This document shows positions 222 to 22,911 of a stretch of DNA of 26,110 nt, piece by piece. The notes below the pieces were generated by a model that was not told the origin of the DNA, did no database searches, and saw nothing but the letters and a program-made list of their open reading frames with translations. Position numbers and translations under genes: made by a program. Within the stretch, counting starts at the first letter, position 1, and the number at the start of each line of letters is the position of its first letter. The stretch spans positions 1 through 26,110 of the forward strand of contig JACOWJ010000033.1 of the NCBI GenBank assembly GCA_016176845.1. The letters run 5' to 3'. This stretch comes from Nitrospinota bacterium. GTDB lineage: Bacteria > 2-12-FULL-45-22 > JACOWJ01.

Positions 222-277
222 AGTTAGCTCATAGCTCATGGCTGATTTTGCTATGAACTATGAGCTGTGAGCTATCT
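222..277. repeat. Heptamer hairpin repeat R1 (AGCTCAT type)
   Basis: Degenerate seven-base units of the type TCATAGC run up to a short AT-rich loop near 250. They are followed by units of the type TATGAGC, which are the reverse complement, so the stretch folds into one long imperfect hairpin. It begins 36 bases after the stop of the partial plus-strand gene. It may act as a 3' stem-loop for that gene, but no U-run follows, so a classical terminator is not shown. Confidence 0.75.
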
Positions 278-280
278 AGA

Positions 281-347
281 TCGCATAGGAATTTCCATTT
301 TTAGGGTACAGATTATTGGGACCCTGTCCCCTGTTCCCTGTCCCCTA
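281..347. repeat. Composite repeat: CATAGGAATTTCC core plus CCCTGTC heptamers (copy 1)
   Basis: Positions 281-325 match 20463-20507 with one difference in 45 bases. The block carries the core CATAGGAATTTCC and runs directly into seven-base units of the type CCCTGTC (about 322-347). It sits between the converging partial plus-strand gene and the RNB exoribonuclease, ending 12 bases from the latter's stop. Read on the minus strand the heptamers are G-runs separated by three to four bases, a G-quadruplex-capable pattern. Confidence 0.8.
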
Positions 348-359
348 ATTTATTAGCCC

Positions 360-2366
360 TCAGGAAAGGAGGACCGCCGTGATCTTGCCCTGCAAGAGGT
401 CGATTCCCTCCAGCTTTACCTCGACCTCGGCTCCTTCCTCCAGCTTCAGAGGAGGGGGCCTCCATCGGTTTCCCAGCTGGCTTACGAGCGCCGGGACCTT
501 GCGGCCTTCGAGGTTGAGCTTGAGGTATTTGAGCAGCCAATAGTTCTCCAGGGCCCTCTCGGCCTTCTTGACCTCCCTTTGGCCGGCCTCCAGGGAGGGA
601 TAGAGCTCCTCCAACTCCTCGCGCGTGTAAGGGGCCTTCCCCTGGCGCAGGGTTCCCTGAAGCTGACGCAGGGCCAACAGGTCCACGTATCTCCGGATGG
701 GCGAGGTCACCTGGATGTAGGCCGGCACCCCCAACGAATAATGGGGTTCGGGATCCAGGCTGATCCTGGAGGCCGAGAGAAAACGGATGGCCCTCAGCGG
801 GAAAAGGGGATCGTCCCCGTTGAGCTTAGGGATCTCCCGGTTGGGAGACCCCTGAACCCGATAGAGGACCGGGATATTCTTCTCCCGACAGAAGGCCGCG
901 GCCAAATGGTTCATCAGGATCATGGTCTCGGAAACGATGAGGTGGCCCGGCGTATTGGATAGGACCTTTTTGACCTGCAGCTCTCCCCCGGGGCCACAGA
1001 AGATCTTCAACTCAGGCAGGTTGAACATCAGGGCGCCGGCCGCCGTCCTCTTCTCCCGCAAGGCCTGGGAGAGCTCCTGCAACAGGCAAAGAAGGGGTTC
1101 GCTTCCGGTCAACGCCCCAGCCTGCGGATAGGTCAGCCGCCTCTTAACGCGGATGACCGATTCCACCAGGCGGTATTCCAGCAAGTTGAAACTGTGGTCG
1201 AAGGTGGCCAGCAGGCTGAGGGCCAACCTCTCCTGGCCATGAGAGAGGCTCAGGTGCTCCGCGATCAGGCTGCGGGGAAGCATGTCCACCCGCCGGCCGG
1301 GCAGGTAGATCGTTTCGCCTCGCTTTAAGGCCTCTCGGTCCAGGGGAGAGCCGGGAGGAACGAAGGCCGCTGCATCGGCGATATGAACCCCCAAGAGGAA
1401 CCGGCCATCCTGCCGTTCCAGGGAAAGGGCATCGTCGAACACCTCCGTCATTTCATCGTCGATGGTGAAGGTCTCCCAGGAGGTGAGGTCCCACCGCTCT
1501 GCCCCCTTCAGGGGTTCATCCGCGAATTTCTCGGGCGCCGAGACGATAACCATCCGCAAGGGGGGCTCTCTCTCGGGTAGGAAGGACGACTCGGCCAGGA
1601 GCTCCGCCGACGGGGGGGCCTGAGGCAGCTGGAAGCGCTCCAGGAGGAACTCCTCCTCCCCTTCCCACTCCCCCACCTTGATCAGCAGGGCGATCAGCTC
1701 CAGCTCCTCCCTCAGGCCGATCCTTTCCATCAGGCCCTGGGCCTCCCGGGCTCGGCCGAGCTCCTCCCCGTAAAGGGCGAAGTTTCGGAGGACCGTCAAG
1801 GGGCCGCGGATGCCCTCCCGATCGATTCTCACCGGACCCGTCTCCTGCCATGCGCGGCTCAGCTCGTTGATGGCTCTTTCCCTCTCGGCCTCCTTCTCCT
1901 TGCCCTTGATCTCCGCCCGGAGGATACCTTCCACTTCCTCCTGCTTTCGAGGGACATACCCTTGAGCGCTCTTCTTAAAATAAGGGTTATGGTTTTCTAG
2001 TGCCCAAAAGAGATAGAATTTTTCCTCCGGAGAAGCGTTCCGTCCCAGGTAGGTCTCCGCCAGGAGATCGAAATCGAACCGCTCCCCTTCGCCCTGTAGG
2101 TATTCCCAGAGGCCGGACAGGTCAACCCTGCGCGCCTCCTCCTCGAAGAGGGCCCTCAGCCTCTTCATTTGCTCCTTCTTTTCCGGAACGGAGAGGGAAG
2201 GATCGATCCCTTTTCCCGTAGCCATGAGCACCTTATGGGGCTCCAGCTCCGTCTCCTTCCACTCCTCGGTGAAAAGGACGTAAAGATCTCCTTTCCCCCC
2301 TTGCAGGAGGCCTAAGACCAGATGTTTTCGTTGGTAAAAAGCCAGCAAATCGCCTTTTTTGGCCAC
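360..2366 (-). CDS. RNB-domain (RNase II/R family) 3'-5' exoribonuclease
   Basis: A 668-residue protein of the RNase II/R superfamily, which degrades RNA processively from the 3' end in the cytoplasm. A small N-terminal beta domain (residues 1-50) and a helical middle precede the RNB catalytic domain from about residue 295. The metal-binding motif reads TIDDEMTEVFDDAL near residues 298-311, and TSPIRRYVDL lies near 553. A short degenerate OB/S1-like tail ends the protein. It lacks the cold-shock domains and basic tail of true RNase R, so no rnr symbol is given. The start is GTG at 2366 with GAAGG six bases upstream. It is the last gene of the DUF151-gatB-lipoprotein-RNB run. Odd: one of the four conserved aspartates appears to be valine (see findings). 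Family assignment is firm; activity is not. Confidence 0.93.
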   Translation of the reverse strand: MAKKGDLLAFYQRKHLVLGLLQGGKGDLYVLFTEEWKETELEPHKVLMATGKGIDPSLSVPEKKEQMKRLRALFEEEARRVDLSGLWEYLQGEGERFDFDLLAETYLGRNASPEEKFYLFWALENHNPYFKKSAQGYVPRKQEEVEGILRAEIKGKEKEAERERAINELSRAWQETGPVRIDREGIRGPLTVLRNFALYGEELGRAREAQGLMERIGLREELELIALLIKVGEWEGEEEFLLERFQLPQAPPSAELLAESSFLPEREPPLRMVIVSAPEKFADEPLKGAERWDLTSWETFTIDDEMTEVFDDALSLERQDGRFLLGVHIADAAAFVPPGSPLDREALKRGETIYLPGRRVDMLPRSLIAEHLSLSHGQERLALSLLATFDHSFNLLEYRLVESVIRVKRRLTYPQAGALTGSEPLLCLLQELSQALREKRTAAGALMFNLPELKIFCGPGGELQVKKVLSNTPGHLIVSETMILMNHLAAAFCREKNIPVLYRVQGSPNREIPKLNGDDPLFPLRAIRFLSASRISLDPEPHYSLGVPAYIQVTSPIRRYVDLLALRQLQGTLRQGKAPYTREELEELYPSLEAGQREVKKAERALENYWLLKYLKLNLEGRKVPALVSQLGNRWRPPPLKLEEGAEVEVKLEGIDLLQGKITAVLLS

Positions 2367-2392
2367 GCCCTACCTTCTTCTTAGCTCATGTT

Positions 2393-2845
2393 TCAGGGCC
2401 GCTGTTGAGAGAGTTGTTGGGGGAGGCCTTTGTCGGCCTTTTGTGGGCGGGATCCGATCTCCTTCAAGGCCTTCTTCTCGAAATCTTTGTATTGGCCTTG
2501 TTTGACCTCTTCAGGCCGGCGGGTGCGCCGGGACTCGTCGTAAAGGGCCCAGGAGTTCCTCTCGGTGAAATGGCAAATCCAGCATTCAGCCGCAGTCTTA
2601 TAAGGGGGGCGATCGTAGAGGGCGGGCTTCTCCTCCAGGCATTGGTTCTGTGGGATGTCCTTATGGACATGGCAGTTTTGACAATAGGCCACGATGATCT
2701 GGTTGCCGTCCCGGGGACCGAGATCCCCTTTCCAGGCTTGATCCAGCAGGGATACCATGCACCCCCCTAGAAAGAAAACCAACAGCCCCACCAGGCCAAC
2801 CCTTCCCCCGATGCGTTTCCCCGATGTCCTTTCCGACCTTTTCAC
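2393..2845 (-). CDS. Small lipoprotein with two c-type heme motifs
   Basis: A 150-residue protein with a charged N-terminus, a hydrophobic segment (residues 16-28) and the lipobox-like FLGGC, so it is probably exported and lipidated at Cys29. Two CxxCH heme-attachment motifs follow, CQNCH at 55-59 and CWICH at 88-92, with an extra cysteine at 69. The C-terminal third is lysine-, arginine- and glutamine-rich and disordered-looking. A periplasmic electron-transfer role is the natural inference, but two CxxCH motifs in a short protein do not identify a family, and metal-only binding is possible. The start is GTG at 2845 with GGAAGG six bases before it. It lies 13 bases after gatB and 26 bases before the exoribonuclease, so it is co-transcribed with unrelated housekeeping genes. 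Confidence 0.85.
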   Translation of the reverse strand: MKRSERTSGKRIGGRVGLVGLLVFFLGGCMVSLLDQAWKGDLGPRDGNQIIVAYCQNCHVHKDIPQNQCLEEKPALYDRPPYKTAAECWICHFTERNSWALYDESRRTRRPEEVKQGQYKDFEKKALKEIGSRPQKADKGLPQQLSQQRP

Positions 2846-2858
2846 GCGTTTCCTTCCC

Positions 2859-4298: not shown

Positions 4299-4389
4299 GC
4301 TTTAGACCTGGCAGCCTATCCGAAAACCTTCCCAAAGGCCTTCCTTAACCGAAAAATCAAAGGAGAAAGGGGAATTTCCAGATAGCTCG

Positions 4390-4992: not shown

Positions 4993-5047
4993 TTTACGAT
5001 CCCCCTCTTATGAAAAGGCGCCATCCTTGATGGACTGTTGAGCAAAA

Positions 5048-5055
5048 CACCTCCT
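5048..5055 (-). promoter_or_regulatory. Strong Shine-Dalgarno for a possible 18-residue leader peptide
   Basis: On the minus strand a perfect AGGAGGTG lies 56 bases before the DUF151 start. Four to five bases after it a TTG opens a short frame (5045 down to 4989) reading MLNSPSRMAPFHKRGIVK, whose TGA overlaps the ATG of the DUF151 gene. It may be a leader peptide giving translational coupling, or a chance purine run. The evidence is the Shine-Dalgarno strength and the ATGA overlap only. Confidence 0.3.
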
Positions 5056-5093
5056 TTTTCTCCCATCTTTCAGCGGAAAACTCTACCTCGTAA

Positions 5094-5122
5094 TTCTTAT
5101 CCCATTTTATCCAGAGGGTCAA
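5094..5122 (-). promoter_or_regulatory. Sigma70-like promoter for the DUF151-gatB block
   Basis: On the minus strand TTGACC (5117-5122) is followed after 17 bases by TAAGAA (5094-5099). The predicted transcript starts near 5087 and has a leader of about 95 bases before the DUF151 ATG. The -35 box is good and the -10 box only fair (three of six consensus bases). Confidence 0.4.
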
Positions 5123-5143
5123 GAACTTTTTGCTGCTCAAGCT

Positions 5144-5219: not shown

Positions 5220-5224
5220 ACCTC

Positions 5225-5253: not shown

Positions 5254-5321
5254 CTTGATCGATACGATGGGACTCTGTCTCAAGCCGTATCAGGAGCAGG
5301 CCCACTGAGGAGTGTAACCAT

Positions 5322-5344: not shown

Positions 5345-5365
5345 CTTTCTGGAAGAAGCTCACCT

Positions 5366-6572: not shown

Positions 6573-6581
6573 GGGCCAGAG

Positions 6582-6655
6582 AAAGGCAAAAGGCAAAATG
6601 AAAAACGATGAAAGGAATTTAATTTTGCATTTTGCAATTTTCAGTTTTCATTTTC
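6582..6655. repeat. Heptamer hairpin repeat R2 (AAAGGCA / TTTGCAT type)
   Basis: Seven-base units such as AAAGGCA and AAATGAA on the left face TTTGCAT and TTTTCAT on the right, giving an AT-rich inverted pair. It fills most of the remA-gmk spacer and starts nine bases after the remA stop. Confidence 0.75.
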
Positions 6656-6674
6656 CCATGGAGCGAAGCGACTA

Positions 6675-7316
6675 GTGGCAGAGAGCTCTGGGGAGAAGCG
6701 TAGCGAGTTGCGTGCGTATGGGCTCGGTGAAAGGCCCTCCCAAGGGTTGATGTTTGTGGTCTCAGCCCCCTCAGGGGCGGGCAAGACCTCGCTATGCACG
6801 AAGCTCATGGAGAGGGTTGCCGGTCTGGCCCGCTCCATCTCCTTTACGACCCGCCCCCTTCGCTCCGTGGAAGAGGATGGCCTGGACTATCATTTCATCA
6901 CGCCGGAAGAGTTTCGGGAGAGGATTATAAGGGGAGAGATGGCCGAGTGGGCCGAGGTGCATGGGGCCCTATACGGGACAGGATTGTCCGCCTTGGAAAA
7001 GGAGCGATCGGAGGGCAAGGATGTGCTCCTGGCGATCGATACTCAAGGGGCCCAGAGGGTCAAAGAGCGCTTTGGCCAGGAGGTCGTGACGATCTTCCTT
7101 TTCCCACCTTCGATGGAGATCCTGGAGCGGCGGCTGAGGGAAAGGGAGGCCGATCCCGAAGGGGAGATCCGCCGGCGCATGGCCGAGGCTGAAAGGGAGA
7201 TGCGCCAGTGGTCCCATTACGACTACGTGGTCGTCAACGACGATTTCGATGAGGCCCTGGAAAAGCTCCAGGCCATTATCCTGGCTGAGAGGTGCCGTAC
7301 TTCTCGCTTGAAATGA
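6675..7316 (+). CDS. gmk: Guanylate kinase
   Basis: Converts GMP and ATP to GDP and ADP. The P-loop SAPSGAGKTS is at residues 30-39 counted from GTG 6675. The GMP-binding part has SFTTRPLR and YHFITPEEF, and IDTQGAQRVKERF and the Arg-rich lid RRLRERE follow. The start is uncertain. GTG 6675 gives 213 residues with a 25-residue extension before the conserved core and a GGAG about 11 bases upstream. TTG 6747 or ATG 6750 would give a family-typical start (189 or 188 residues) but with poorly spaced AAGGG. The extension lies in a repeat-like stretch containing GCGAAGCGA and GCGTAGCGA, so it may be non-coding. The next gene is coaBC; rpoZ, often found between them, is absent here. Confidence 0.94.
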   Translation: MAESSGEKRSELRAYGLGERPSQGLMFVVSAPSGAGKTSLCTKLMERVAGLARSISFTTRPLRSVEEDGLDYHFITPEEFRERIIRGEMAEWAEVHGALYGTGLSALEKERSEGKDVLLAIDTQGAQRVKERFGQEVVTIFLFPPSMEILERRLREREADPEGEIRRRMAEAEREMRQWSHYDYVVVNDDFDEALEKLQAIILAERCRTSRLK

Positions 7317-7319
7317 ACC

Positions 7320-7375
7320 GTGGGCGGTGGGCAGGTGAAAGGTGGGCTGCTCACTGCTCACCGTCCACTGCTCAT
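7320..7375. repeat. Heptamer hairpin repeat R3 (GTGGGCA / TGCTCAC type)
   Basis: Eight seven-base units: four of the type GTGGGCG, then four of the type TGCTCAC, which pair with the first set if G-U pairs are allowed. It starts three bases after the gmk stop and ends just before the ribosome-binding site of coaBC. It therefore fills the place where rpoZ is often found. Confidence 0.8.
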
Positions 7376-7390
7376 GAGGGGAGAGATAGA

Positions 7391-8617
7391 GTGAGCCTGC
7401 AAGACCGAGAGATCGTCTTGGGGGTAACGGGAGGCATCGCGGCTTACAAGGCGGTAGAGGTGCTGCGACGGCTGGTGCAGCAGGGAGCGAATGTGCACGT
7501 GGTCATGACCCGGAGCGCTCAAGAGTTCGTGGGCCCTTTGACCTTTCAAACCCTTGCCCGCAACCCGGTGATCACCGAGATGTTTGCCCTTACCCAGGAG
7601 ACGGACATCCAACACATCTCTCTGGCCCGAAGGGCCGATCTGGTCTTGATCGCCCCGGCCACGGCCAACGTGATCGGCAAATTCGCTCACGGGATTGCCG
7701 ATGATTTCCTGACCACGCTGCTGTTGGCGACAAGGGCGCCGATCCTGATGGCCCCGGCGATGAACCCGGAGATGTATGCCAACGGAATCGTTCAGGACAA
7801 TATCGCTTCGCTCCGAGCCCGGCAGGTGAGGTTCATTCCCCCAGGGGCGGGAGAGACCGCCTGCAACGAGGTCGGCGTTGGCCGGCTGGCCGAGGTCTCG
7901 GCCATCGTGGAGGCCGTCGAAAGGTTCTTCCTCCAGGGCAGGGATCTGGTGGGCAAAAAGGTCTTGGTCACCGCGGGGCCCACGGAGGAGCCTTTGGATC
8001 CCGTCCGCTTCCTGAGCAATCCTTCCTCGGGCAAGATGGGCTATGCCCTGGCCGAGGCCTCTCAAAACCGGGGAGCTCAAGTGGTCCTGGTCAGCGGCCC
8101 TACCCTTCTGGCCCCTCCCCCCAATGTGGACTTCTATCCGATCAAGACGGCCTTGGAGATGCGCGCTACCGTGATGCGGGAGCTGGAGAGCTCGGATGTC
8201 GTGATCAAGGCGGCCGCGGTGGCCGACTATCGGCCCAAGACGATGTTCACCAGCAAGATTAAGAAGCGGGAGGGGGAACTGGTAGTCCAGCTGGAGAGGA
8301 ACCCGGACATCCTGGCCGAGATCGGCTCCCAAAAGAGACACCAGGTTCTGGTGGGTTTTGCCGCCGAGACGGATGACTTGCTGGCCAATGCCAGGGCCAA
8401 GGTCCTCCAGAAGAACCTGGATATGATCGTGGCCAACAACGTGCGATCCACCGAGATCGGGTTCAGGAGCAACGAGAACAAGGTCCTCCTCATTTATCCG
8501 GATGGCTCCATCGAGGACCTGCCTAAGATGTCCAAGCGGGAGGTGGCCGATGCCATCCTCGACCGGGTCGTGGAGCTGGTGAGGCGTAGGGCGGGGGCAG
8601 ATGGCACAAGACCGTGA
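7391..8617 (+). CDS. coaBC: Bifunctional phosphopantothenoylcysteine decarboxylase / phosphopantothenate-cysteine ligase
   Basis: Carries out two successive steps of coenzyme A synthesis. The N-terminal flavoprotein (CoaC) domain has GVTGGIAAYKA, His75, Asn125 in PAMN and Cys158 in TACNEVGVGR. These are the same numbers as the E. coli catalytic residues, which supports the GTG start at 7391 (GGGGAGAG five bases upstream). The C-terminal CoaB domain starts near residue 190 with VLVTAGPTEEPLDPVRFLSN and contains KAAAVADYRP, LERNPDILAEIG, VGFAAET and the NNV..TEIGF segment. The length of 408 residues is typical. It overlaps the next gene by 17 bases, so the two are probably translationally coupled. 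A longer frame back to 7292 would run through repeat R3 and is not used. Confidence 0.96.
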   Translation: MSLQDREIVLGVTGGIAAYKAVEVLRRLVQQGANVHVVMTRSAQEFVGPLTFQTLARNPVITEMFALTQETDIQHISLARRADLVLIAPATANVIGKFAHGIADDFLTTLLLATRAPILMAPAMNPEMYANGIVQDNIASLRARQVRFIPPGAGETACNEVGVGRLAEVSAIVEAVERFFLQGRDLVGKKVLVTAGPTEEPLDPVRFLSNPSSGKMGYALAEASQNRGAQVVLVSGPTLLAPPPNVDFYPIKTALEMRATVMRELESSDVVIKAAAVADYRPKTMFTSKIKKREGELVVQLERNPDILAEIGSQKRHQVLVGFAAETDDLLANARAKVLQKNLDMIVANNVRSTEIGFRSNENKVLLIYPDGSIEDLPKMSKREVADAILDRVVELVRRRAGADGTRP

Positions 8618-9602
8618 TGATCTATTCAAAGAGCTGAAGGAGATGGCCGCGGAACTGGCGGGCATCCTCCGGTACCAGGGGTTGTTGGGCGTGACCCATG
8701 TGGCCGTCGGGGATCAGGGATCGGGGAACAGGGGACAGGGGACAGGGAACAGGGGACAGGGAGCAGGGGACAGGGGGCAGGGATCGGGACGGCCATCCGC
8801 GGATCCCCGTCCATCGGTTCCCCCAGAAACCCCCTCGGCTTCGCTTCGTGGCAGGGAGCTTCCGCCCCGTTCGCTGGCGGCGGCCATGGGAAGAAAGGCC
8901 CCTTCTGGACCCTCGACGGCCCAACCCCGGCGGCCCGCGGATTCGGGGGGGCGGCTAAACCCCGCCCTGGCCTCTACCCGAGAGGAGGCTTTGAGCTGCA
9001 CCCGGTGTCCTCTCCATCGGACCCGAACCCAGGTGGTCTTTGGCGCTGGGAGCGAGTACGCCTCCCTGGTCTTCATCGGAGAGGGCCCGGGTGCCGATGA
9101 AGACCTCCAGGGGAAGCCCTTCGTGGGTCGGGCCGGGCAGTTGCTCACGAGGCTGTTGCAGGAGATCGGCATCCAGCGAGAAGAGGTTTATATCACCAAC
9201 GTCGTGAAGTGTCGTCCCCCGAACAATCGCAACCCTCAACCCGATGAGATTGCCGCCTGCGAGCCTTACCTGATCAGGCAGAGGGAGATCATCCGGCCCA
9301 AGCTCATCTGCACCCTGGGAAGCTTCGCGGCTCAGACCCTCCTCAAGACCCAACAACCTATCTCTCGCTTGCGGGGAAGGCTTCATCCGCTTGGCGATCA
9401 AAACGGCCATGACCCTGCAGAGTTGGCCTCCCCCAAGAATGAAAATGTCCTTCAGAAAGACTCCAGCATTGTCACGGTAAAGGTGTTGCCGACGTATCAT
9501 CCGGCCTTTATCCTGAGATACCCTGCCCAACTCAAAGTCATCCAAGAAGATTTCCAACTGCTGAAGCGCGAATACGAAAAGGTCATGGAGGAGAAGGCAT
9601 GA
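8601..9602 (+). CDS. Family-4-type uracil-DNA glycosylase with two repeat-derived insertions
   Basis: A 333-residue iron-sulfur uracil-DNA glycosylase of the family 4/5 type, which removes uracil from DNA. The cluster cysteines are C133, C136, C204 and C220, with the 16-residue spacing of the last pair expected in this family. Motif 1 is GEGPGADED from residue 160 and motif 2 is TYHPA with His300. Residues 1-30 are helical, and residues 31-130 form a low-complexity linker. The part of the linker at 37-62 is a heptapeptide repeat (N/D-R-G-Q-G-x-G) encoded by an 11-unit seven-base array. Residues about 269-294, between LRGRLHPL and VLPTYHP, are encoded by a dispersed 76-bp palindromic element. 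Relatives normally go from RGR to the TYHP strand in a few residues. The catalytic core is intact, so the enzyme is probably functional. The start is ATG at 8601, inside the end of coaBC. Confidence 0.93.
   Translation: MAQDRDDLFKELKEMAAELAGILRYQGLLGVTHVAVGDQGSGNRGQGTGNRGQGAGDRGQGSGRPSADPRPSVPPETPSASLRGRELPPRSLAAAMGRKAPSGPSTAQPRRPADSGGRLNPALASTREEALSCTRCPLHRTRTQVVFGAGSEYASLVFIGEGPGADEDLQGKPFVGRAGQLLTRLLQEIGIQREEVYITNVVKCRPPNNRNPQPDEIAACEPYLIRQREIIRPKLICTLGSFAAQTLLKTQQPISRLRGRLHPLGDQNGHDPAELASPKNENVLQKDSSIVTVKVLPTYHPAFILRYPAQLKVIQEDFQLLKREYEKVMEEKA
8710..8786 (+). repeat. In-frame heptamer array (GGGGACA type), 11 units
   Basis: Eleven contiguous seven-base units vary around GGGGACA (GGGATCA, GGGAACA, GGGAGCA and others), covering 77 bases inside the uracil-DNA glycosylase gene. 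Three units make 21 bases, so the protein shows a seven-residue repeat. The complementary unit CCCTGTC forms the intergenic arrays near 322-347 and 20504-20538. The unit has no stop codon in any plus frame. The G-runs fit a G-quadruplex pattern on the coding strand. Confidence 0.9.
9406..9481 (+). repeat. 76-bp palindromic element inserted in frame in the uracil-DNA glycosylase gene
   Basis: Gap-free match (about 80%) to the intergenic copy at 5144-5219, including the arms TGAAAATG and CATTGTCA (one mismatch in the stem) and the shared AGAATGAAAATG and CACGGTAAA blocks. It adds about 26 residues between two conserved parts of the enzyme without breaking the frame. This resembles in principle the Rickettsia palindromic elements found inside genes. 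Confidence 0.85.
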
Positions 9603-12836: not shown

Positions 12837-12892
12837 GTGCAGTGAGCAGTGGGCAGCACACCGCACACCGCACACTGCACACCGCTGTTAGC
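12837..12892. repeat. Heptamer hairpin repeat R4 (GCAGTGA / ACACTGC type)
   Basis: Eight seven-base units: GTGCAGT, GAGCAGT and GGGCAGC face ACACCGC and ACACTGC units. It begins four bases after the mnmA stop and may form a 3' stem-loop on the mnmA transcript. Confidence 0.75.
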
Positions 12893-12935
12893 ATTACAGC
12901 ACAAAGTTCGTTAGCACGAATAAGGATCGTGGACT

Positions 12936-13045
12936 AAATAACTTGCCCATTTGGTTCCCTGCAGAAAGTTTTAGGTTTTAGGTTTTAAGCCCTAAAACCT
13001 AAAACTTAAAACTTATTATCCCATTCGACCATGGGAAAGTTATTT
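12936..13045. repeat. Nested palindrome containing heptamer repeat R5 (GGTTTTA / AAACCTA type)
   Basis: The inner part, 12967-13015, is seven heptamers (AGTTTTA, GGTTTTA, then AAACCTA, AAACTTA), which fold into a hairpin. It is framed by an outer inverted pair, AAATAACTTGCCCAT at 12936-12950 and its near complement at 13031-13045. The element lies in the 352-base convergent spacer between mnmA and motB, which holds no gene. Confidence 0.75.
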
Positions 13046-15378: not shown

Positions 15379-16332
15379 TCATTCAGGGTGAGGCCTTCCT
15401 GGAGGTTGCCGGATTGGCTCTAAGATGGCCTCGGCTCCTTCAGCCAGCAACCTTTCGGCCAACTTCCACCCCAACTCTTGGGCCTCCTCGACCCTCCCTT
15501 GCGTGCTCCCGCTTACCCAGCGATCCCCTTGAGGGCTGCAGACCAATCCTTTCAGGGACAGCTGACCTTCCCCTACCTCTGCCAGGGCAGCGATGGGGAC
15601 CTGACAACCTCCTTCGAGACGCTGCAAGAAGGCCCTCTCCGAGGTAACCGCCTGATAACTCGGGAGATGGTTCAGGAGGCCTAAAAAGGGCATCCGTTCC
15701 CCTGCATCCTGACAGACTTCGATCCCCAGCGCCCCCTGACCGATGGCCGGCAGGCAGACCTCCGCGGAGAGGACCTCCGTAACCCGGTCTGTCCATCCCA
15801 TTCTTGACAGGCCCGCCAATGCGAGCACGATTCCATCCAGGCCTTCTGAAGAGAGCTTCCTCAGCCGGGTATCCAGGTTGCCCCTCAGGGAGACGATCTG
15901 GAGGTCAGGCCTGCGGCGCAGAAGTTGAGCCTGACGCCTCAGGCTGCTCGTCCCGATCCGAGCTCCCGCCCTCAAACGGTCAAAGGGCAATCCTTCCCGA
16001 GAGATCAGGGCATCCCAAGGGACCTCTCGAAGAGGGACGGCCCCCAAAATAAGCCCTTCCGGCAGCTCGGCCGGCAGGTCCTTCACGCTGTGGACCGCCA
16101 GGTCCACCTGGCCCGAAAGCAAGGCCTCCTCGATCTCTTTTACGAAAAGGCCCTTCCCCCCAATCTTGGCCAAGGGGACATCCAGGATCTTATCCCCCGT
16201 GGTCTGGATCACGCGGATCTCCACCTCGAGGTCCGAGTCCAATTCCTTCAGTCTGGCCTCTACCCACCGCGCCTGCCAGAGGGCCAGCAAGCTGCCCCGG
16301 GTTCCGATAGATACCGTTTTCTTGTTCCGCAT
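15379..16332 (-). CDS. hemC: Porphobilinogen deaminase (hydroxymethylbilane synthase)
   Basis: A 317-residue HemC, which polymerises four porphobilinogens to hydroxymethylbilane. IGTRGSLLALWQA, IQTTGDKILDVPLAKIGGKGLFVKEIE and DLAVHSVKDLP form domain 1. GTSSLRRQAQL and LRGNLDTRLRKL bind substrate phosphates and acids. Cys243 in LEGGCQVP carries the dipyrromethane cofactor (Cys242 in E. coli). The start is ATG at 16332; the only purine run upstream is GGAAATTCC, part of a dispersed repeat. It follows hemA after 122 bases of repeats, so it may have separate expression control despite the shared direction. Confidence 0.96.
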   Translation of the reverse strand: MRNKKTVSIGTRGSLLALWQARWVEARLKELDSDLEVEIRVIQTTGDKILDVPLAKIGGKGLFVKEIEEALLSGQVDLAVHSVKDLPAELPEGLILGAVPLREVPWDALISREGLPFDRLRAGARIGTSSLRRQAQLLRRRPDLQIVSLRGNLDTRLRKLSSEGLDGIVLALAGLSRMGWTDRVTEVLSAEVCLPAIGQGALGIEVCQDAGERMPFLGLLNHLPSYQAVTSERAFLQRLEGGCQVPIAALAEVGEGQLSLKGLVCSPQGDRWVSGSTQGRVEEAQELGWKLAERLLAEGAEAILEPIRQPPGRPHPE

Positions 16333-16340
16333 AATATAAC

Positions 16341-16362
16341 CGTATAGGAATTTCCTTTTTTA
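16341..16362. repeat. TATAGGAATTTCC core repeat (copy upstream of hemC)
   Basis: Copy of the core CGTATAGGAATTTCC followed by a T-run. It ends nine bases before the hemC ATG when read on the minus strand (GGAAATTCCTATACGG). It is related to the copies at 281, 17807, 20463 and 25987. Confidence 0.7.
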
Positions 16363-16379
16363 GACAGGATTTACGGGAA

Positions 16380-16449
16380 AGTTTTAAGTTTCAGGTTTTA
16401 AGTGTTAAGCAAGAAACCTAAAACTTAACACCTAAAACTTAACACTTAA
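16380..16449. repeat. Heptamer hairpin repeat R6 (GGTTTTA / AACCTAA type)
   Basis: Ten seven-base units: AGTTTTA, AGTTTCA, GGTTTTA and AGTGTTA, then AACCTAA, AACTTAA, CACCTAA and CACTTAA. They fold as an AT-rich inverted pair. Read on the minus strand the array begins five bases after the hemA stop. Confidence 0.8.
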
Positions 16450-16454
16450 CTTGA

Positions 16455-17717
16455 TTACGACCTATCCAAATCAAAAAGCCGGCGAATGGTCTCCATGTTG
16501 AAGCCGTTCCGGGCATGGGCTTGCTCCCTGATATAGGAGATCGGCCCATGCAGAAGCTTGTTCACTATGGCGGCCGTCATGGCATTGATCGCTTCTCTCT
16601 CCTTGTCCGAGACGGAAACCCGGGAGAGCGTCTTCTCCATCTCCTGCATCCGGATCCTCTCGGCTTTCTCCCGAAGGGATTTTATGGTAGGCACCGCGTT
16701 CTGAGCCTCCAGCCAGCCCAGGAAATGCCAGGACTCTCTCTGGATTAGATCCTCAGCCTTCTGGGCCTCCCGCTCTCTCTCTTGCAGGTTGTTCTGTACG
16801 ATGACATGGAGGTCATCGATGTTGTAAAGATAGATGTTCTCGATCTCGTTAATTTGGGGGTCGATATCCCGGGGAACCGCGATATCGATCAGAAATATGG
16901 GCCGGTTCTTTCGCGCTCGGATGACCCCTTCCGCCTTCTGCCGGGTGAGGATATAATGAGGGGCGCCCGTGGAGCTGATCACGATATCGGCATGGATCAA
17001 CTCCTCCTCCAGGCGGGAGAAGTCTGCGGCCTTTCCCCCCAGGCTTTCAGCCAGGGCCACAGCGCGCTCATAGGTTCGATTGGCCACCACCACTGCCTTC
17101 ACCCCTTGAGTGAGCAGGTGGCGGGCGGCCAACTCCGACATCTCTCCAGCCCCAATCAGGAGGACGGACTTCCCCTCCAGCTTGTGGAAGATCTTCTTGG
17201 CCAATTCGACGGCGGCAAAACTCACCGAGACGGCATGTTCCCCCAGCTGGGTCTCCGTCCGCACCCGCTTGGCCACCGAAAAGGCCTTCTCGAAGAGCTG
17301 GTTGAGGATGAGGCCCGTAACCCCGGCCTCTTTGGCCAAGAAATAGGCCCCCTTCACCTGCCCCAGGATTTGAGGTTCCCCGACCACCATGGAATCCAGG
17401 CTGGAAGAAACCCGGAAGAGATGCTTGATCGCCTCTCCGTGTTGATAAACATAGAGATATTTCTCAAAATATTCCAGTGGAAATTGATGGTAGGAGGAGA
17501 GAAACCCCTTAATCTCGGAGACCCCATCCTCCGCTTCCCGGCCCTGGGCGTAAACTTCCACACGGTTACAGGTCGATAGGATAACCTTCTCCTCTAAAAA
17601 GGGAGAATCTGTCGTCCGGTCCAAAAAAGCCGAGAGATGCTTCTCCGAAAAAGCCAGCCTTTCTCTGACCTCGATCGGCGCCGTCTTATAACTGATCCCG
17701 ACTACGAAGATGCCCAT
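16455..17717 (-). CDS. hemA: Glutamyl-tRNA reductase
   Basis: A 420-residue HemA that reduces glutamyl-tRNA(Glu) to glutamate semialdehyde, the first step of C5 tetrapyrrole synthesis. The N-terminus MGIFVVGISYKTAPIEVRERLAF is typical. Cys50 in STCNRVEVYA is the nucleophile, GEPQILGQVKGAY is in the catalytic domain, and VLLIGAGEMSELAARHL is the NADPH site. The C-terminal dimerisation helices end in HARNGFNMETIRRLFDL. ATG 17717 is chosen over a longer frame to 17759, whose extra residues come from a dispersed repeat. GAGG is four bases upstream. It follows the ccsA/hemX gene, a common arrangement. Confidence 0.96.
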   Translation of the reverse strand: MGIFVVGISYKTAPIEVRERLAFSEKHLSAFLDRTTDSPFLEEKVILSTCNRVEVYAQGREAEDGVSEIKGFLSSYHQFPLEYFEKYLYVYQHGEAIKHLFRVSSSLDSMVVGEPQILGQVKGAYFLAKEAGVTGLILNQLFEKAFSVAKRVRTETQLGEHAVSVSFAAVELAKKIFHKLEGKSVLLIGAGEMSELAARHLLTQGVKAVVVANRTYERAVALAESLGGKAADFSRLEEELIHADIVISSTGAPHYILTRQKAEGVIRARKNRPIFLIDIAVPRDIDPQINEIENIYLYNIDDLHVIVQNNLQEREREAQKAEDLIQRESWHFLGWLEAQNAVPTIKSLREKAERIRMQEMEKTLSRVSVSDKEREAINAMTAAIVNKLLHGPISYIREQAHARNGFNMETIRRLFDLDRS

Positions 17718-17738
17718 AAAACCTCGGGGTGAACTTAG

Positions 17739-17804
17739 ATTGCTTCGCTTCGCTCGCAATGACTTTATCGTGTCATTGCGAGGAGCGCCAGCGACGAAGC
17801 AATC
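17739..17804. repeat. GATTGCTTCG palindromic repeat, copy 1
   Basis: A 66-bp imperfect palindrome begins GATTGCTTCG and ends CGAAGCAATC, with inner GCAATGA/TCATTGC arms around a ten-base loop. The right arm is about ten bases longer than the left. A second copy in the opposite orientation starts at 26047. It lies just upstream of hemA and would form part of its leader. There is no coding capacity, so this looks like a non-autonomous (REP/MITE-like) element. Confidence 0.85.
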
Positions 17805-17806
17805 CC

Positions 17807-17827
17807 AAAATGGAAATTCCTATACGG
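17807..17827. repeat. TATAGGAATTTCC core repeat (minus orientation, next to ccsA end)
   Basis: The reverse complement reads ACCGTATAGGAATTTCC followed by a T-run, closely matching the copy before hemC. It ends immediately next to the ccsA/hemX stop codon and abuts the GATTGCTTCG palindrome. Confidence 0.7.
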
Positions 17828-18622
17828 TCAAGAATAGGTATGAAGCCAATAAGATAGAGAGACCAGCACGAATCCGAAGACCGCCCCGCGGGCTGCCTTT
17901 CTCCCGCGCCACCATCCGTTCAGCCGACCCAGCAAAAGGATTCCGTAAATAGCCCAAGCGATCAGCAAAGGCCAGGTCTTGTGGGGATCCCAATCCCAGA
18001 AGGAGCCCTTGGCCGAGCGGATCCAAATGAAGCCGGCGACGAGACCCAGGGTAAGGAAGGGGAAACCCCAGGACAGGGCCTTATGGCTCAAATCATCCAA
18101 CATCTCCAAGGAAGGCAGGCGGTGATAAAAGACCCCTGGCCGCCTGGATTTCAGTTGCCCCTCTTGAAGGATATACATGACCCCTACTCCGAAGGTCAGC
18201 GTGAAAGCTGCCGTGCCCAAGAAGGCGAAGACCAGATGGATCAGGAACCAAAAATTCGCCATGACCGGGATGAGCGGGGTCCCCTCTCCCGGCAAAATAA
18301 GAGCAAGAAATATGCCAAAAAAGGCCACGGGCATCACAAAAGAACCCAGTGCAGAGATCCGGTATCTCCACTCGGCCAGGAGGTAAGCGAGGACCACCAC
18401 CCAGGAGGAGAAGGCCAAAGACTCGGAAAAATTGGCAAAGGGCAAACGGTGAGCCTGAACCGTCATGAGAATCAAGGTCACCGTATGGGAGAGGAAACCC
18501 AAGGCAACCGCCCCCATCGCGATCTTGAAGAGCAAAGGCCGCCGATGGATCAGGAAAAGGATATGTTTCAGCGTGGCAATAAAATAAATAAAGAGGGTCA
18601 GGTTAGAGAAAATGACGTTCAT
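17828..18622 (-). CDS. CcsA/HemX-like cytochrome c assembly membrane protein
   Basis: A 264-residue membrane protein with about eight hydrophobic segments. It has the family's tryptophan-rich loop KGSFWDWDPHKTWPLLIAWAIYG (near 206-228), and conserved histidines in LSHTV, FLIHLVF and the C-terminal WLHTYS. CcsA/CcmC relatives handle heme for c-type cytochrome maturation. The shorter homologue encoded before hemA is often called HemX and may influence glutamyl-tRNA reductase levels. Position directly upstream of hemA favours the HemX type, and the WDWDP motif shows a heme-handling relative. The start is ATG at 18622 with GTAAGGGA close upstream. The gene also fits the presence of a CxxCH lipoprotein in the window. 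Confidence 0.9.
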   Translation of the reverse strand: MNVIFSNLTLFIYFIATLKHILFLIHRRPLLFKIAMGAVALGFLSHTVTLILMTVQAHRLPFANFSESLAFSSWVVVLAYLLAEWRYRISALGSFVMPVAFFGIFLALILPGEGTPLIPVMANFWFLIHLVFAFLGTAAFTLTFGVGVMYILQEGQLKSRRPGVFYHRLPSLEMLDDLSHKALSWGFPFLTLGLVAGFIWIRSAKGSFWDWDPHKTWPLLIAWAIYGILLLGRLNGWWRGRKAARGAVFGFVLVSLSYWLHTYS

Positions 18623-18641
18623 TCCCTTACTCGCTTCGCTC

Positions 18642-18732
18642 GAATTGCAAAATGAAAATTGTACCTATCAAATTGCAAATCGATCTTCTTCCGTTTTTCA
18701 ATTTAAAATTTTCAATTTTCAATTTTCAATTC
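18642..18732. repeat. Heptamer hairpin repeat R7 (AAATTGC / TCAATTT type)
   Basis: Thirteen seven-base units, AT-rich: GAATTGC, AAAATGA and AAATTGC on the left and TCAATTT and TCAATTC on the right, folding as an inverted pair. The right end includes the last codons and TGA stop of the siroheme synthase gene at 18719-18732. Confidence 0.75.
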
Positions 18733-19360
18733 GCTCTTCAATAATGGCCCTCATCTTCTCCCGGGCCGGCTCTTTCTCTCCTTGTCGGAGAAGTTGGAGG
18801 ATATCTGAGGCCACCACAGCGCGAAAAGCGGCCTCCCTGGCCCGGGAATCTGGGATCCGGGCGATGACCTCTCCCCGAACCTCTCCTAGCAACTCCAACA
18901 ACTCCGCATATTCCTGACCGAACTGGATCTCCAGCTCTTCCCGGATCTTTCTGGCCAGGGCCGGACTCTTTCCGGCAGTGGAGATGGCGATGGTGAGATC
19001 TCCCCGGGAGATCCACGAAGGGACAATGAAGTCACTGCCCGCGGCATCGTCCACCAGGTTCACCAAGGCCTTTTGGCGGCGGGCCCAGGTGGATACGCGG
19101 AGGTTGAGCCGGGGATCATCGGTAGCCCCAATGACCAAGAAGAGCTCGGAGATATCCCGCTCCACGAACTCCTCCGCCCGGCACTCGATGACTCCTTTCT
19201 CCCATAAATCCCTCAAGGCAGGGGTAATCCGCGGGCTGATCACCAAGACGCGGGCCTGGGCCTCCAATAGGGAGCCGACCTTCCTCTCGGCCACCTCTCC
19301 CCCCCCCACCACCGCGCAAAGCTTTTCCTTCAAATCCAGGTAGAGAGGATAGTAGCGCAT
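18719..19360 (-). CDS. Precorrin-2 dehydrogenase / sirohydrochlorin ferrochelatase (CysG N-terminal/Met8p type)
   Basis: A 213-residue NAD-dependent enzyme that oxidises precorrin-2 and inserts iron to make siroheme. The Rossmann site is CAVVGGGEVAERKV (15-28). The signature NLVDDAAGSDFIVPSWISRGDLTIAISTAGKSPALARKIRE follows, and a helical dimerisation tail ends the protein. No uroporphyrinogen methyltransferase domain is fused. The start is ATG at 19360 in a TAATG overlap with the dehydrogenase upstream. Its last codons and stop lie inside heptamer repeat R7, so the native C-terminus may have been replaced by repeat sequence. Confidence 0.94.
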   Translation of the reverse strand: MRYYPLYLDLKEKLCAVVGGGEVAERKVGSLLEAQARVLVISPRITPALRDLWEKGVIECRAEEFVERDISELFLVIGATDDPRLNLRVSTWARRQKALVNLVDDAAGSDFIVPSWISRGDLTIAISTAGKSPALARKIREELEIQFGQEYAELLELLGEVRGEVIARIPDSRAREAAFRAVVASDILQLLRQGEKEPAREKMRAIIEERIEN

Positions 19361-20442
19361 TAGGGATGGCCCGGGTGGCTATGATAAATCTTTTTGATCT
19401 CTTTGATCATACGAATCCGCTCTTCCGCCATGCGATCGGCCGCCACATGAGTGGGGATTCGGTCCCGCTTGGAGATGGCGATCACTCGGGCCACGCTGTC
19501 GTGAATCTTGGAGGCGGTCTTCAATGCGCGGGACCGATTATATCCTTCCAACTCGTCGGCCACATTGATCAACCCTCCCGAGTTGATGACGTAGTCGGGG
19601 ATATAAAGGACCCCTCTCTTGTGAAGGACGATCCCATGCCGCTCCTCCAACAGTTGATTGTTGGCAGAGCCGGCCACGATTTTGCAACGCAGGCTTGGAA
19701 TGGTATCCTCGTTCAGGATCCCTCCCAGGGCACAGGGAGAGAAGATGTCGCAGGGGACCTCGTAGATCTCATCGGGGTTCACCGGGATCGCCCCAAACTG
19801 GTTCACCACCTTGCCCACCTTCTTATCGTCGATATCGGAGACGAAGATCTTGCCCTTTTCCTTAAAGATGAACTCGGCCAGATGATAGCCCACGTGGCCC
19901 GCCCCCTGGATAGACACCGTGTGGCCCTCGATGGAGCCATCGCCGAAGACCTCCTCCAGACAAGCCTTCATCCCCCGATAGACCCCATAGGCCGTTACCA
20001 AGGACGGATCGCCGCTGCCCCCCCGGGTGGTGGAGATCCCCGTCACGTAGCGGGTTTCCAGCCGAATGACCTCCATGTCCTCCACCGTCGTGCCCACGTC
20101 TTCGGCCGTAATGTAACGGCCGTTGAGGGCCTCAATATAGATGCCCAGGGTGCGGAAGAGGGCCTCGCTCTTGTCTTTCTTGGGGTCGCCGATAATGACC
20201 GTTTTGCCCCCGCCCAGGTTCAAGCCGGCCGCCGCAGCCTTATAGGTCATTCCCCTGGCCAATCTCAAGGCATCCTCGATCGCCTCCTCATCGGACTCGT
20301 AAGTCCACATCCGGCACCCACCCAACGCGGGTCCCAGGGTGGTATCGTGGATCGCGATGACTGCCCGCAAGCCCGCTTGTCTATTGCTGCAAAGGATCAA
20401 CTGTTCATGGTCATAGGCCTCTAGGCGCTCGAAAATGCCCAA
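19360..20442 (-). CDS. Leucine dehydrogenase-type Glu/Leu/Phe/Val dehydrogenase
   Basis: A 360-residue NAD-dependent amino-acid dehydrogenase that interconverts a branched-chain amino acid and its 2-oxo acid plus ammonia. From TTG 20442 it starts [14 protein letters not shown] and puts the catalytic lysines at K68 and K80 (GLNLGGGK), the same numbers as in Bacillus-type leucine dehydrogenase. That agreement, with AGGGG eight bases upstream, decides the start. Other marks are [23 protein letters not shown] and the NAD site GAGHVGYH. A longer in-frame reading to 20538 is repeat-derived. It heads the siroheme-heme gene run and is translationally coupled to the siroheme gene. Why an amino-acid dehydrogenase leads this run is unclear; ammonia or glutamate balance is a guess. 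Confidence 0.93.
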
Positions 20443-20462
20443 CTTCTTCACCCCTATTTCAA

Positions 20463-20538
20463 TCGCATAGGAATTTCCATTTTTAAGGTACAGATTATTG
20501 GGACCCTCTTCCCTGTCCCCTGTCCCCTGTCCCCTCAT
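20463..20538. repeat. Composite repeat: CATAGGAATTTCC core plus CCCTGTC heptamers (copy 2)
   Basis: Positions 20463-20507 match 281-325 with one difference, followed by CCCTGTC-type heptamers at about 20504-20538. It occupies most of the spacer between EF-G and the leucine dehydrogenase. On the minus strand it lies in the dehydrogenase leader, with four or more G-runs. Confidence 0.85.
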
Positions 20539-20569
20539 TTAAATGATTCGTTGAAACCATTTTAAATGG
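20536..20569. repeat. Pair of small perfect palindromes after the EF-G gene
   Basis: CATTTAAATG at 20536-20545 and CCATTTTAAATGG at 20557-20569 are each self-complementary and also pair with each other. They lie a few bases downstream of the EF-G stop on the minus strand. They may mark the transcript end, but no U-run follows. Confidence 0.4.
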
Positions 20570-20573
20570 GCCC

Positions 20574-22661
20574 TCATCTTTTTTCAACTCCTTTGTGAAG
20601 GGCCTCATCATAACGGAAGAAACGCATGGTAAAGGTCCCCCGACCCTGCGTGATGGAACGCAGATCCGTGGAGTAGCCGAACATGGCCGATAGGGGGACA
20701 AAGGCCTTCACCAAACGAACCGGCGGCCGCGAGGAGATCTCTTCGATCCTGCCCTTGCGGCTACCCAGGTCTTCGATAGCCGGCCCCAGGTACTCTTCCG
20801 GCACCACCACCTCCACCTCCATGATCGGCTCCAACAGGAGGGGATCGGCCTGGGCAAAGCCCTCTCGAAAGGACTGGCCGGCAGCGATCCTGTAGGCCTG
20901 CTCGGTGGATTCTCCCTCCCGAAAAACCGCTGAAACCAGGGCGACGCGGACGTCCGTGACGGGATAGCCGCTGATGACCCCGCCCTCCGCCGCATCTTTC
21001 AGGCCCTCTTCGATCGTCCCCACGAGCTCCGGGGAGAGAATGCCCGGGGCCAGCTCGGAAACGAGCTCGAACCCTGTTCCCCTTTCCTTGGGGGAGAGGG
21101 AGAGAGTCACCTGGGCAAAATGCTTCACTCCGCCGATCTCCCGGTCAAACCGGCCTTCGCGGAGGACAGGCCGGGAGATCGTCTCGCGGTAAACCACCTG
21201 GGGTTTGCCCACCCGAGCGTTCACCCCGAACTCCTCCGCCAGCCTCCGGGTCAGCACATCCAGATGGAGCTCGCCCATCCCCGAGATCAGGGTCTGCCCG
21301 GTTTCCTCGTTGAACCTCACCCGGAAGGTGGGATCCTCCGCCTGGAGCTTCTCCAGGGCCTCTTCCAATTTGCCTTGCTCCCCGATGCTCCTGGGCTCAA
21401 TGGCCACGGAGATGACCGGCTCGGGGAACTCCATCGGCTCGAAAGAGAGCGGGTGCTCGGGATCGCAGAGGGTATCTCCGGTAAACGTATCGGCCATCCC
21501 GGCGGCCGCCACGATCTCGCCGGCCGTCGCCTCCTCCAATCTCTCCTTCTTGTTGGCAACCATCCGGAAGAGGCGGGCCATGCGCTCCCTCTTCTTGCGT
21601 GTGGCGTTGTAAACCTGCGAGCCCACGGCCACCCGGCCGGAATAGATCCGGAAGTATGTGAGCTTGCGGCCCTGGTCGAGGGCGATCTTGAAGGCCAGCG
21701 CCGAGAAGGGGGCCTCCCGGCTGTGAGGCCTCTCCTCCGGTTGCCCGGTCAGGGGATGGATCCCCACCGCCGGCGGCAGGTCGCGGGGGGCCGGCAGGTA
21801 GTCCACGATACCATCCAGGAGCGGTTGGATGCCCTTGTTTTTCAGCCCCGAGCCGCACAGCACCGGCACCGCCTGGTAGTTCAGCGTGGCCTGGCGCAGG
21901 GCGGCCTTCAGCAACTCCTCCGAGATGGGCTCGTTCTCCAGGTAGGCCTTCAGCAAAGTCCCGAGCGCCCCCTCCGAGACATCCGCCTTCTCGGCCAGGG
22001 CCTCGATGAGGGCATCGCGATAAAGCAAGGCCTCCGCCTCCAATTCCTGCGGGACCTCTCCCTCTTCAAAGGTGACCCCCCAATCGTCGGTGTGCCAGGT
22101 GATCCCCTTCCCCCGGATCAGATCAACCACCCCCGCGAAGGTCTCTTCGCTGCCGATCGGGAGCTGGATGGGAAGCGGCTGACCGCTTAGCTTCGCCTTC
22201 ATATCCTCCAGGACGGCATAAAAGTCGGCTCCCACCCGGTCCATCTTGTTGACAAAGGCCAACCTCGGTACCCGGTACTTATCCGCCTGATGCCAAACGG
22301 CCTCCGATTGGGGCTCCACCCCCTCCACGGCGGAGAAGATGGCCACCGCTCCATCCAAGACCCTCAGGGACCTCTCCACCTCGATGGTAAAATCCACGTG
22401 GCCCGGGGTATCGATGAGGTTGATGGCATGGTTGCGCCACTTGCACATGATCGCCGCCGCAGTGATCGAGATGCCCCGCTCCTGCTCTTGGGGCATCCAG
22501 TCCGTGGTGGCCTCGCCCTCATGGACCTCCCCAATCTTATGGATCGTCCCCGTGTAATAAAGCATCCGCTCCGTCACGGTGGTCTTCCCCGCGTCGATGT
22601 GCGAGATGATGCCGATATTGCGGATCCGGTTAAGTGGGAAACCCTTGAACTCCTGCGACAT
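20574..22661 (-). CDS. Translation elongation factor G (probable second paralogue)
   Basis: A 695-residue EF-G with all five domains. The GTPase motifs are HIDAGKTT (21-28), the switch-[16 protein letters not shown] and NKMD. Domain II follows, and [11 protein letters not shown] and [10 protein letters not shown] begin the tail domains. The C-terminal fold has [26 protein letters not shown] drives ribosome translocation and, with ribosome-recycling factor, subunit splitting. The neighbours are a dehydrogenase and a SAM hydrolase, not rpsL, rpsG and tuf. The switch-I region reads ISIT where ITIT is usual, which suggests a second copy rather than the str-operon fusA. The start is ATG at 22661 with GGGAG six bases upstream. 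Confidence 0.93.
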
Positions 22662-22674
22662 TGTCGCTCCCTAA

Positions 22675-22723
22675 TTCAATGAAAAATGCAAAATGAAAAG
22701 TGCAAAATGAAAAATGAAATATT
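22675..22723. repeat. Heptamer repeat R8, left arm (CAAAATG type)
   Basis: Seven units of the type CAAAATG/AAAAATG beginning with TTCAATG, 14 bases upstream of the EF-G start. The matching arm is 22877-22911. The roughly 150 bases between the arms hold two further inverted pairs. Confidence 0.75.
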
Positions 22724-22740
22724 TAGAGCTCATAGACTGT

Positions 22741-22867
22741 ATTATTCATACGTGCTTTTTTGATTGTCATTCCGGGCTTGACCCGGAATCCAGTCTTTTA
22801 AACCTGGATTCCCGCTTTCGCGGGAATGACATTATCAAAGGTCAAAACAATCCAGGTTATGAATAAT
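22741..22867. repeat. Nested palindromic elements inside repeat R8
   Basis: ATTATTCATA (22741-22750) pairs perfectly with TATGAATAAT (22858-22867). Inside, TGATTGTCATTCC at 22761 faces GGAATGACATTATCA ending at 22837. Within that, GGAATCCAG pairs with CTGGATTCC, and two small hairpins form, CCGGG/CCCGG and CCCGC/GCGGG. The innermost CATTCC...GGAATGAC unit resembles a repeat I know to be widespread in bacterial genomes. The whole can form a branched cruciform. Confidence 0.75.
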
Positions 22868-22876
22868 TCAGGTTTA

Positions 22877-22911
22877 AAATTTGCATTTTGCATTTTGCAT
22901 TTTTCATTCAA
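22877..22911. repeat. Heptamer repeat R8, right arm (CATTTTG type)
   Basis: Five units of the type CATTTTG ending in CATTCAA, the reverse complement of the left arm. It contains the stop codon (22904-22906) and the preceding Glu codon of the SAM hydrolase family gene. Confidence 0.75.

Follow-up and report, generated by a model that had tools for sequence, protein, structure and literature searches.

Seven-base-period hairpin arrays and a conserved intergenic frame in a Nitrospinota genome

The stretch of DNA analyzed here, the window, comprises 26,110 nucleotides of a Nitrospinota bacterium (contig JACOWJ010000033.1 of GenBank assembly GCA_016176845.1, positions 1 to 26,110) and carries a series of arrays that repeat with a period of seven bases, many of them arranged as the two facing arms of a hairpin. 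The host genome, designated G000 (the window is its contig C52), is assembled as 1.53 Mb in 61 contigs and is 68% complete; the closest relatives of its MnmA share 55-56% identity with it, and its placement in the tree, nearest to Nitrospinota, is unsupported. Among the genomes compared, the sole one of the same order, G001, belongs to another family. The reading developed below, to which we give about even credence, is that the arrays form the arms of hairpin cassettes, short, non-coding and non-autonomous, which are dispersed between genes and whose arms change through slippage by seven nucleotides. The dispersal of these cassettes is well supported.

Heptamer arrays in the window

The window opens with a hairpin of GCTATGA/TCATAGC heptamer arms at 225-275, located by Tandem Repeats Finder and folding strongly as single-stranded DNA (z = -4.3 at 224-277). 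Beside it, on the plus strand at 273-301, stands a copy of a conserved sequence that we call the frame (TATCTAGAT plus CGCATAGGAATTTCCATTTT); its flanking 4-mer, CTAG, fits the N-T-x-N' rule described below. The payload of this frame is a plus-strand GGGGACA/GGGAACA array (as CCCTGTC) at 306-355, whose flanks recur at 36 other places and which ends with CCCCTAATTTA at the stop codon of an RNase R-like gene. Another plus-strand frame, at 16332-16360 (TAATATAAC plus CGTATAGGAATTTCCTTTTT), carries an AAGTTTT/AAACCTA heptamer hairpin with a CTTGCTTAACAC-type loop at 16374-16456 (plus strand; 23 flank matches; a weaker fold, z = -2.8 at 16374-16452) that ends with TTAACTTGAT at the hemA stop codon, and a third, at 20455-20540 (TATTTCAAT plus CGCATAGGAATTTCCATTTTT; plus strand; flanks at 33 other places), carries a GGGGACA payload at 20504-20535. 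Frames with non-heptamer payloads lie on the minus strand at 17740-17835 (a GATTGCTTCG ... GAAGCAATCT palindrome) and on the plus strand at 25976-26110 (a GATTGCTTCG-type palindrome, cut by the window end).

Strongly folding hairpins are also formed by the inverted arms GTGGGCA and CTGCTCA at 7320-7374 (z = -3.9 at 7316-7376), by GGTTTTA/CCTAAAA arms at 12967-13015 (z = -5.4 at 12966-13018), which lie within a second dispersed repeat (CCATGGTCGAATGGGATAAT ... TTTCTGCAGGGAACCAAATGGGCAAG; 22 flank matches), and by inverted AT-rich arms (AATTGCA/AAATGAA and TTTTCAA) at 18642-18731 (z = -5.0 at 18636-18733). The arms AAAGGCA/AAAATGA and ATTTTGC/ATTTTCA at 6582-6654 have unique flanks (0 matches) and fold less well (z = -2.0 at 6576-6660), as do the arms GCAGTGA/GCAGTGG and GCACACC/GCACACT at 12838-12885 (z = -1.8 at 12838-12886). 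A split pair is made up of a left arm, AATGAAA/AATGCAA, at 22678-22719 and a right arm inverted to it, TTTGCAT/TTTTCAT, at 22880-22908 (both plus strand, Tandem Repeats Finder). These arms are ~160 bp apart, and there are additional palindromes in the loop interval (22720-22879): at 22743-22868, ATTATTCATA ... TATGAATAAT ends enclose two nested palindromes, GTCATTCCGGG..CCCGGAATCC and GGATTCCCGC..GCGGGAATGAC, of which only the inner recurs in the sampled sequence (L009:9166-9222, L047:1677-1747). The plus-strand GGGGACA/GGGAACA/GGGATCA array at 8709-8789 is a single arm (z = +0.7), lying in register within open reading frame 8601-9602, which, from a reading of its sequence, we take to be uracil-DNA-glycosylase-like; its predicted product there is a repetitive linker rich in Gly, Gln and Asn (GDQGSGNRGQGTGNRGQGAGDRGQ).

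All of the arrays named in the original prediction, which was made from the window alone, are thus present, and the period is as strict as it had proposed, with 0% indels in all of the Tandem Repeats Finder rows at period 7. Its picture of facing arms that fold as long hairpins applies to four strongly and three more weakly folding arrays of the window and does not extend to the GGGGACA arrays, which are essentially one-armed; those at 8709 and 20490 fold as single-stranded DNA no better than chance. The units had also been described as completely different, which is incorrect: they make up about five families with members shared between arrays. AAAATGC/AAAATTG units are common to 6582, 18642 and 22675/22877, GCAGTGR/GTGGGCA-type units to 7320 and 12837, and GGTTTTA/AAGTTTT units to 12967 and 16380 (the unit AAATTGC, previously assigned to 16380, is that of 18642).

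Seven-base period and inverted arms

The genome-wide analysis covered 719 kb of G000, including a first subset of 398 kb. Most of the sampled contigs were picked for GGGGACA repeats or for the frame, so that array density is biased and the comparison between periods is not. Segments matching themselves at a lag of 7 number 181, compared with 5, 12 and 5 at lags of 6, 8 and 9; the corresponding counts in the first 398 kb are 94 (lag 7), 2, 3 and 3, and Markov-resampled sequence yields 0. The anticipated excess of period 7 over periods 6 and 8 is therefore real. So is the excess of inverted arms: an inverted partner (score of at least 14, at most 120 bp from the array) accompanies 70 of the 181 arrays, as against 10 in a control with swapped flanks, 4 for direct and 2 for mirror partners. 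Period 7 is also mildly ahead in 60 other, unrelated genomes, sampled at one contig end each (17, versus 9 each for periods 6 and 8), and at 80 MnmA loci (17, versus 9 for period 6 and 1 for period 8). The preference for period 7 is therefore general across genomes, and G000 is an extreme case.

Array families and shared flanks

The arrays of G000 fall into the families GGGGACA/GGTTACA, TTAGGGA/GGGGCTA, AGTTTTA/GGTTTTA, GCTATGA, AATTGRA/AATGCAA and GCAGTGG. In several of these, the same loop and outer flanks recur at many loci, and the differences between copies in a family are of whole 7-nt units, which fits slippage. With the heptamers masked, the flanks of 94 of the 145 array groups match other loci. 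In the window, flanks belonging to dispersed repeats are found at 322, 12856-13015, 16414 and 20504 (22-36 matches), and the arrays at 6622, 8710, 18700 and 22678/22880 have only 0-2 flank matches. GGGGACA and GGGATTA arrays could form G-quadruplexes; as a general account, G-quadruplexes fail by reasoning, for they leave the AT-rich arrays unexplained.

An AT-rich family (AATTG/AAATGC arms) stands apart: it is without the frame, its loops are unique and short GC hairpins often flank it, adjoining it on the outside in 25 of 51 cases (10% at random positions). The stems of these mini-hairpins vary, and their loop is TNC in ~17 cases and GNA in 1, as counted by eye. The mini-hairpins with TNC triloops (GNA on the other strand) that adjoin AT-rich arms at L014, L018, L022, L035, L039, L041, L046 and L048 often begin directly at a stop codon.

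A rival notion is that each array was generated where it now lies, by slippage with a 7-nt preference and with fold-back template switching supplying the inverted arm. It is favored by the mild lead of period 7 in unrelated genomes, by the unique loops and flanks of the AT-rich family, in which an arm is slightly more similar to its partner than to arms in general (p = 0.018), and by the complete difference between the units of G000 and those of G001. Taken as the only process, it is nevertheless unlikely. Loops, non-heptamer flanks and the frame are common to many loci; in the AAACTTA family, similarity between partner arms does not exceed that between arms of different elements (p = 0.91), and the same holds for the GGGATTA and GCTATG families, as expected of copies from one template. 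Homogenization of arms, sought among the families, was found only in the AT-rich one. The original prediction of one generating mechanism in place of the spread of an element accordingly survives in part. The excesses of period 7 and of inverted arms speak for it, and shared loops and flanks, together with a single frame beside four unit families, speak against it; with families also held in common between loci, these make the dispersal of elements, rather than local generation alone, a large part of the answer.

A conserved frame with interchangeable payloads

Alignment of 95 sites in G000 yields the frame consensus TAA-NTxN'-AT-CGYATAGGAATTTCCWTTTT. Its motif CGNATAGGAATTTCC occurs 77 times in G000 and not at all in the reversed control. 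In no one of 385 other genomes does it occur more than twice; G001 has 2 exact copies, and, when one mismatch is allowed and a T-run required, 59 frame copies versus 0 reversed. A search for the frame in viral contigs found none. In G000 the frame adjoins arrays of four unit families as well as non-heptamer palindromes: the payload is heptameric in 62 of 89 frames, and the remainder are mainly palindromes (GATTGCTTCG...GAAGCAATC) or C/G runs. A frame lies within 150 bp of 50 of the 145 array groups, as compared with 14.5% of random intergenic points. Many cassettes run from the constant end through a variable hairpin to a second TAA-NTxN'-A, and head-to-tail chains of them are frequent.

The payloads of G001 include other heptamer hairpins (CAGAAGT, AAATCCT and TCATTGA types), the GATTGCTTCG palindrome and, frequently, a CGCAGGCTTTAGCCTGCG hairpin. 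No doubled heptamer class is common to G000 and G001 in the sequence sampled, in which just 9 classes were seen in G001. At 21 orthologous gene pairs of the two genomes, elements are either not in common or differ as hairpins within one gap, as at L022:11126-11474 and L276:15049-15202, where each genome has its own heptamer hairpin. Shared architecture with unshared sequence describes the relation between G000 and G001, as sampled, which keep the frame; it does not describe G000 itself, in which most arrays are copies from a few dispersed families. Two observations on G001 may be added. Some of its hairpin arms look as if they had a period of eight bases (GGGTTATT/GGGTCATT; L284, L286, L143), and the stretch AAATTCGAAATCCTAAATCCTAAAC is nearly identical in a Schekmanbacteria contig (L057:2462-2492) and in G001 (L137:4826-4857), a hint that it spread laterally or that both copies had one template.

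Cassette ends

The 9 bases that precede the frame show a two-base rule: the bases at -6 and -3 could form a Watson-Crick pair at 74 of the 89 G000 sites (31.6 expected), and this pair of positions has the highest mutual information of 780 pairs tested. Many 4-mers contribute (CTTG, TTTA, ATTT, CTCG, TTCA, GTTC, TTGA, CTGG). CTTG or GTTC is found at 32 of 103 sites in G000 and 12 of 39 in G001; the general form is N-T-x-N'. In G001, N and N' are complementary in 34 of 39 sites (14.5 expected); conforming sites include 273-281 and 16332-16340 of the window and L135-L208 in G001. At the opposite end of the cassette the complementarity extends to 36 of 37 cases, with a few 4-mer types predominating. 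We know of no described site of N-T-x-N' form, nor of a structure that accounts for a lone base pair closing a two-base gap.

The two ends of the cassette differ, and the frame is present at one of them only. The search for a target-site duplication at the cassette ends gave only a weak signal. Membership in the class of miniature inverted-repeat transposable elements (MITEs), which requires terminal inverted repeats and a target-site duplication, is rejected: the frame is one-ended, and left and right ends share an exact 8-nt match in just 5 of 37 cases.

Genomic location

With genes called by codon usage, 151 of the 174 arrays that could be placed are intergenic, in a genome in which intergenic DNA makes up ~17% of bases. 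Array density is highest in gaps between convergent genes (2.2 per kb), intermediate in tandem gaps (1.5) and lowest in divergent gaps (0.6). The frame has no preferred orientation relative to genes in tandem gaps (34 versus 29). This placement suggests insertions tolerated at a distance from promoters, and not a function in the transcript.

Function at the RNA level, with the hairpins serving as terminators or mRNA stabilizers under selection in the transcript, would provide another reason for the peak of density in convergent gaps, that is, for enrichment at the 3' ends of genes, and some outer GC hairpins do start at a stop codon. We nonetheless consider it improbable. The stems of tandem gaps have no excess of G-T over A-C mismatches on the transcribed strand (78 versus 75), as would support selection on the RNA; the frame is unbiased in orientation, hairpins sit inside likely operons and an Rfam search of the window returned no match.

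A possible route of dispersal

Single-stranded hairpins are also substrates of Y1 enzymes, which leave no target duplication, and mobilization of palindromes resembling repetitive extragenic palindromes (REPs) by a Y1 (IS200/RAYT) transposase comes to mind. Y1_Tnp genes are indeed present in all ten other array-bearing genomes tested; however, 5 of 14 control genomes also match, the family being common, a heptamer array lies within 2-3 kb of just 2 of 24 Y1 loci elsewhere, and PF01797 was not found in G000, which is 68% complete, all of which makes a Y1 enzyme a poor candidate.

IS91-family elements have no inverted termini; their replication starts at one end, beside a target tetranucleotide, and often ends at another matching tetranucleotide, giving rise to miniature products and captured flanking DNA (PMC3189936). 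IS801, a member of this family with one-ended miniature products, targets GAAC, GGAC, CAAG and CGAC (PMC3189936); on the opposite strand, CAAG and GAAC read CTTG and GTTC. Helitron transposition takes as its termination signal a hairpin close to the open end, the loss of which leads to read-through to new ends, including CTTG (PMC4778049). Both of the frame-bearing genomes, G000 and G001, have remnants of PF04986, the IS91-type Y2 transposase, as do 6 of 58 others; among 14 control genomes there are none. G001 also has PF14319 remnants, one of them lying ~290 bp away from a frame and on its strand. Tetranucleotide flanks, the want of a clear target duplication, chains and IS91-type remnants together suggest IS91-like rolling-circle mobilization of the cassettes; an IS91-like enzyme as the mobilizer is a lead.

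The pattern of dispersal would then reflect a one-ended rolling-circle mechanism like that of IS91 and Helitrons, in which replication would start at the constant end, beside the target tetranucleotide, run through whatever follows and stop near a hairpin, at the next tetranucleotide. To judge from differences in copy number, arms may in addition lengthen and shorten by 7-nt slippage steps, with the words drifting while period and self-complementarity stay. The proposal in full, that one end is fixed and the other open, that any hairpin after the frame can act as the stop signal, that unrelated hairpins are dispersed in one frame with 7-nt slippage of their arms, and that targets are set by two-base complementarity rather than by a fixed word, is tentative, and we would be somewhat surprised if all of it were correct.

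Several facts weigh against cassette dispersal by such a route. Of 300 random intergenic positions, 99 also match repeats, so that repetitiveness is a general property of the intergenic DNA, and 95 of the 145 array groups are more than 150 bp from any frame. The PF04986 and PF14319 remnants are all degraded fragments, the lone G001 remnant beside a frame could be there by chance (a few per cent), and no intact transposase or autonomous frame-bearing copy was found. IS91-family elements target tetranucleotides of G/C type, yet TTTA, ATTT and TTCA are common at frame sites. Left and right N match in 17 of 37 cassettes (10.8 expected; p = 0.014), possibly a short target duplication, and a search for empty sites produced one weak paralogous candidate (78% identity), its other matches being mostly chains or self-matches.

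Relation to known elements

The cassettes, which are 60-160 bp long, resemble IS91/IS801 (PMC3189936) and Helitrons (PMC4778049) in having one fixed end, in lacking terminal inverted repeats, in the tetranucleotide found at either end and in their variable cargo, and Helitrons also in the hairpin near the open end (PMC4778049). They differ in their small size, in their hairpin payloads, in the presence of transposase only as remnants and in a tetranucleotide that is set by complementarity of its outer bases instead of by fixed words. The BrickBuilt MITE of Porphyromonas gingivalis (PMC4596501) is likewise a small intergenic element, in which a conserved leader and tail enclose a tandem repeat; its unit is 23 nt, its repeats are direct and of one family, and its ends are small inverted repeats. 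REPs and bacterial interspersed mosaic elements share with the cassettes their short intergenic palindromes in many copies; the cassettes differ in arms made of heptamer repeats and in a host in which (at 68% completeness) no Y1 transposase was detected.

An excess of heptamers and inverted heptamer pairs are already known. The original prediction knew of no inverted-pair version with varying units; as a claim that inverted pairs are unknown, this was mistaken: convergent pairs of GGGAATC heptamer arrays have been described in Xanthomonas (PMC4692102). As in G000, the Xanthomonas arrays are many and intergenic, and 70-75 convergent inverted pairs are able to form stem-loops; they are of one G-rich unit type per genome, with no shared frame described (PMC4692102), whereas G000 has several families, most of them not G-rich, and non-heptamer payloads. 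Long simple sequence repeats, cyanobacterial short tandemly repeated repetitive sequences and the TAACTGA repeats of Beggiatoaceae (PMC4679880) also have period 7, intergenic location and variable unit number, and are mainly direct arrays; neither hairpin pairing nor a common frame is known to have been reported for them. The excess of heptamers among long simple repeats, and the idea that it reflects polymerase contacts, go back to a 2007 survey, cited in PMC4679880 and PMC4692102; why bacterial tandem repeats favor a unit of seven bases has been a question ever since.

To this question G000 contributes some hundreds of seven-base-unit examples, many of them paired in hairpins. No prior description was found of several heptamer families and other hairpins in one frame, or of the two-base rule, in a literature covered in part, so novelty is unproven. 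Interchangeable hairpin payloads in one conserved frame, along with the rule of two complementary bases, point to an unrecognized class of mini-mobile element, which, if real, would account for much of the repetitive DNA between the genes of these uncultured bacteria. Lastly, G017, a genome dense in heptamer arrays (L145-L154) that is not a close relative, has 4 unit classes in common with G000 where 0.6 would be expected: GGGGACA, GGTTACA, GGGATTA and GGGATCA.

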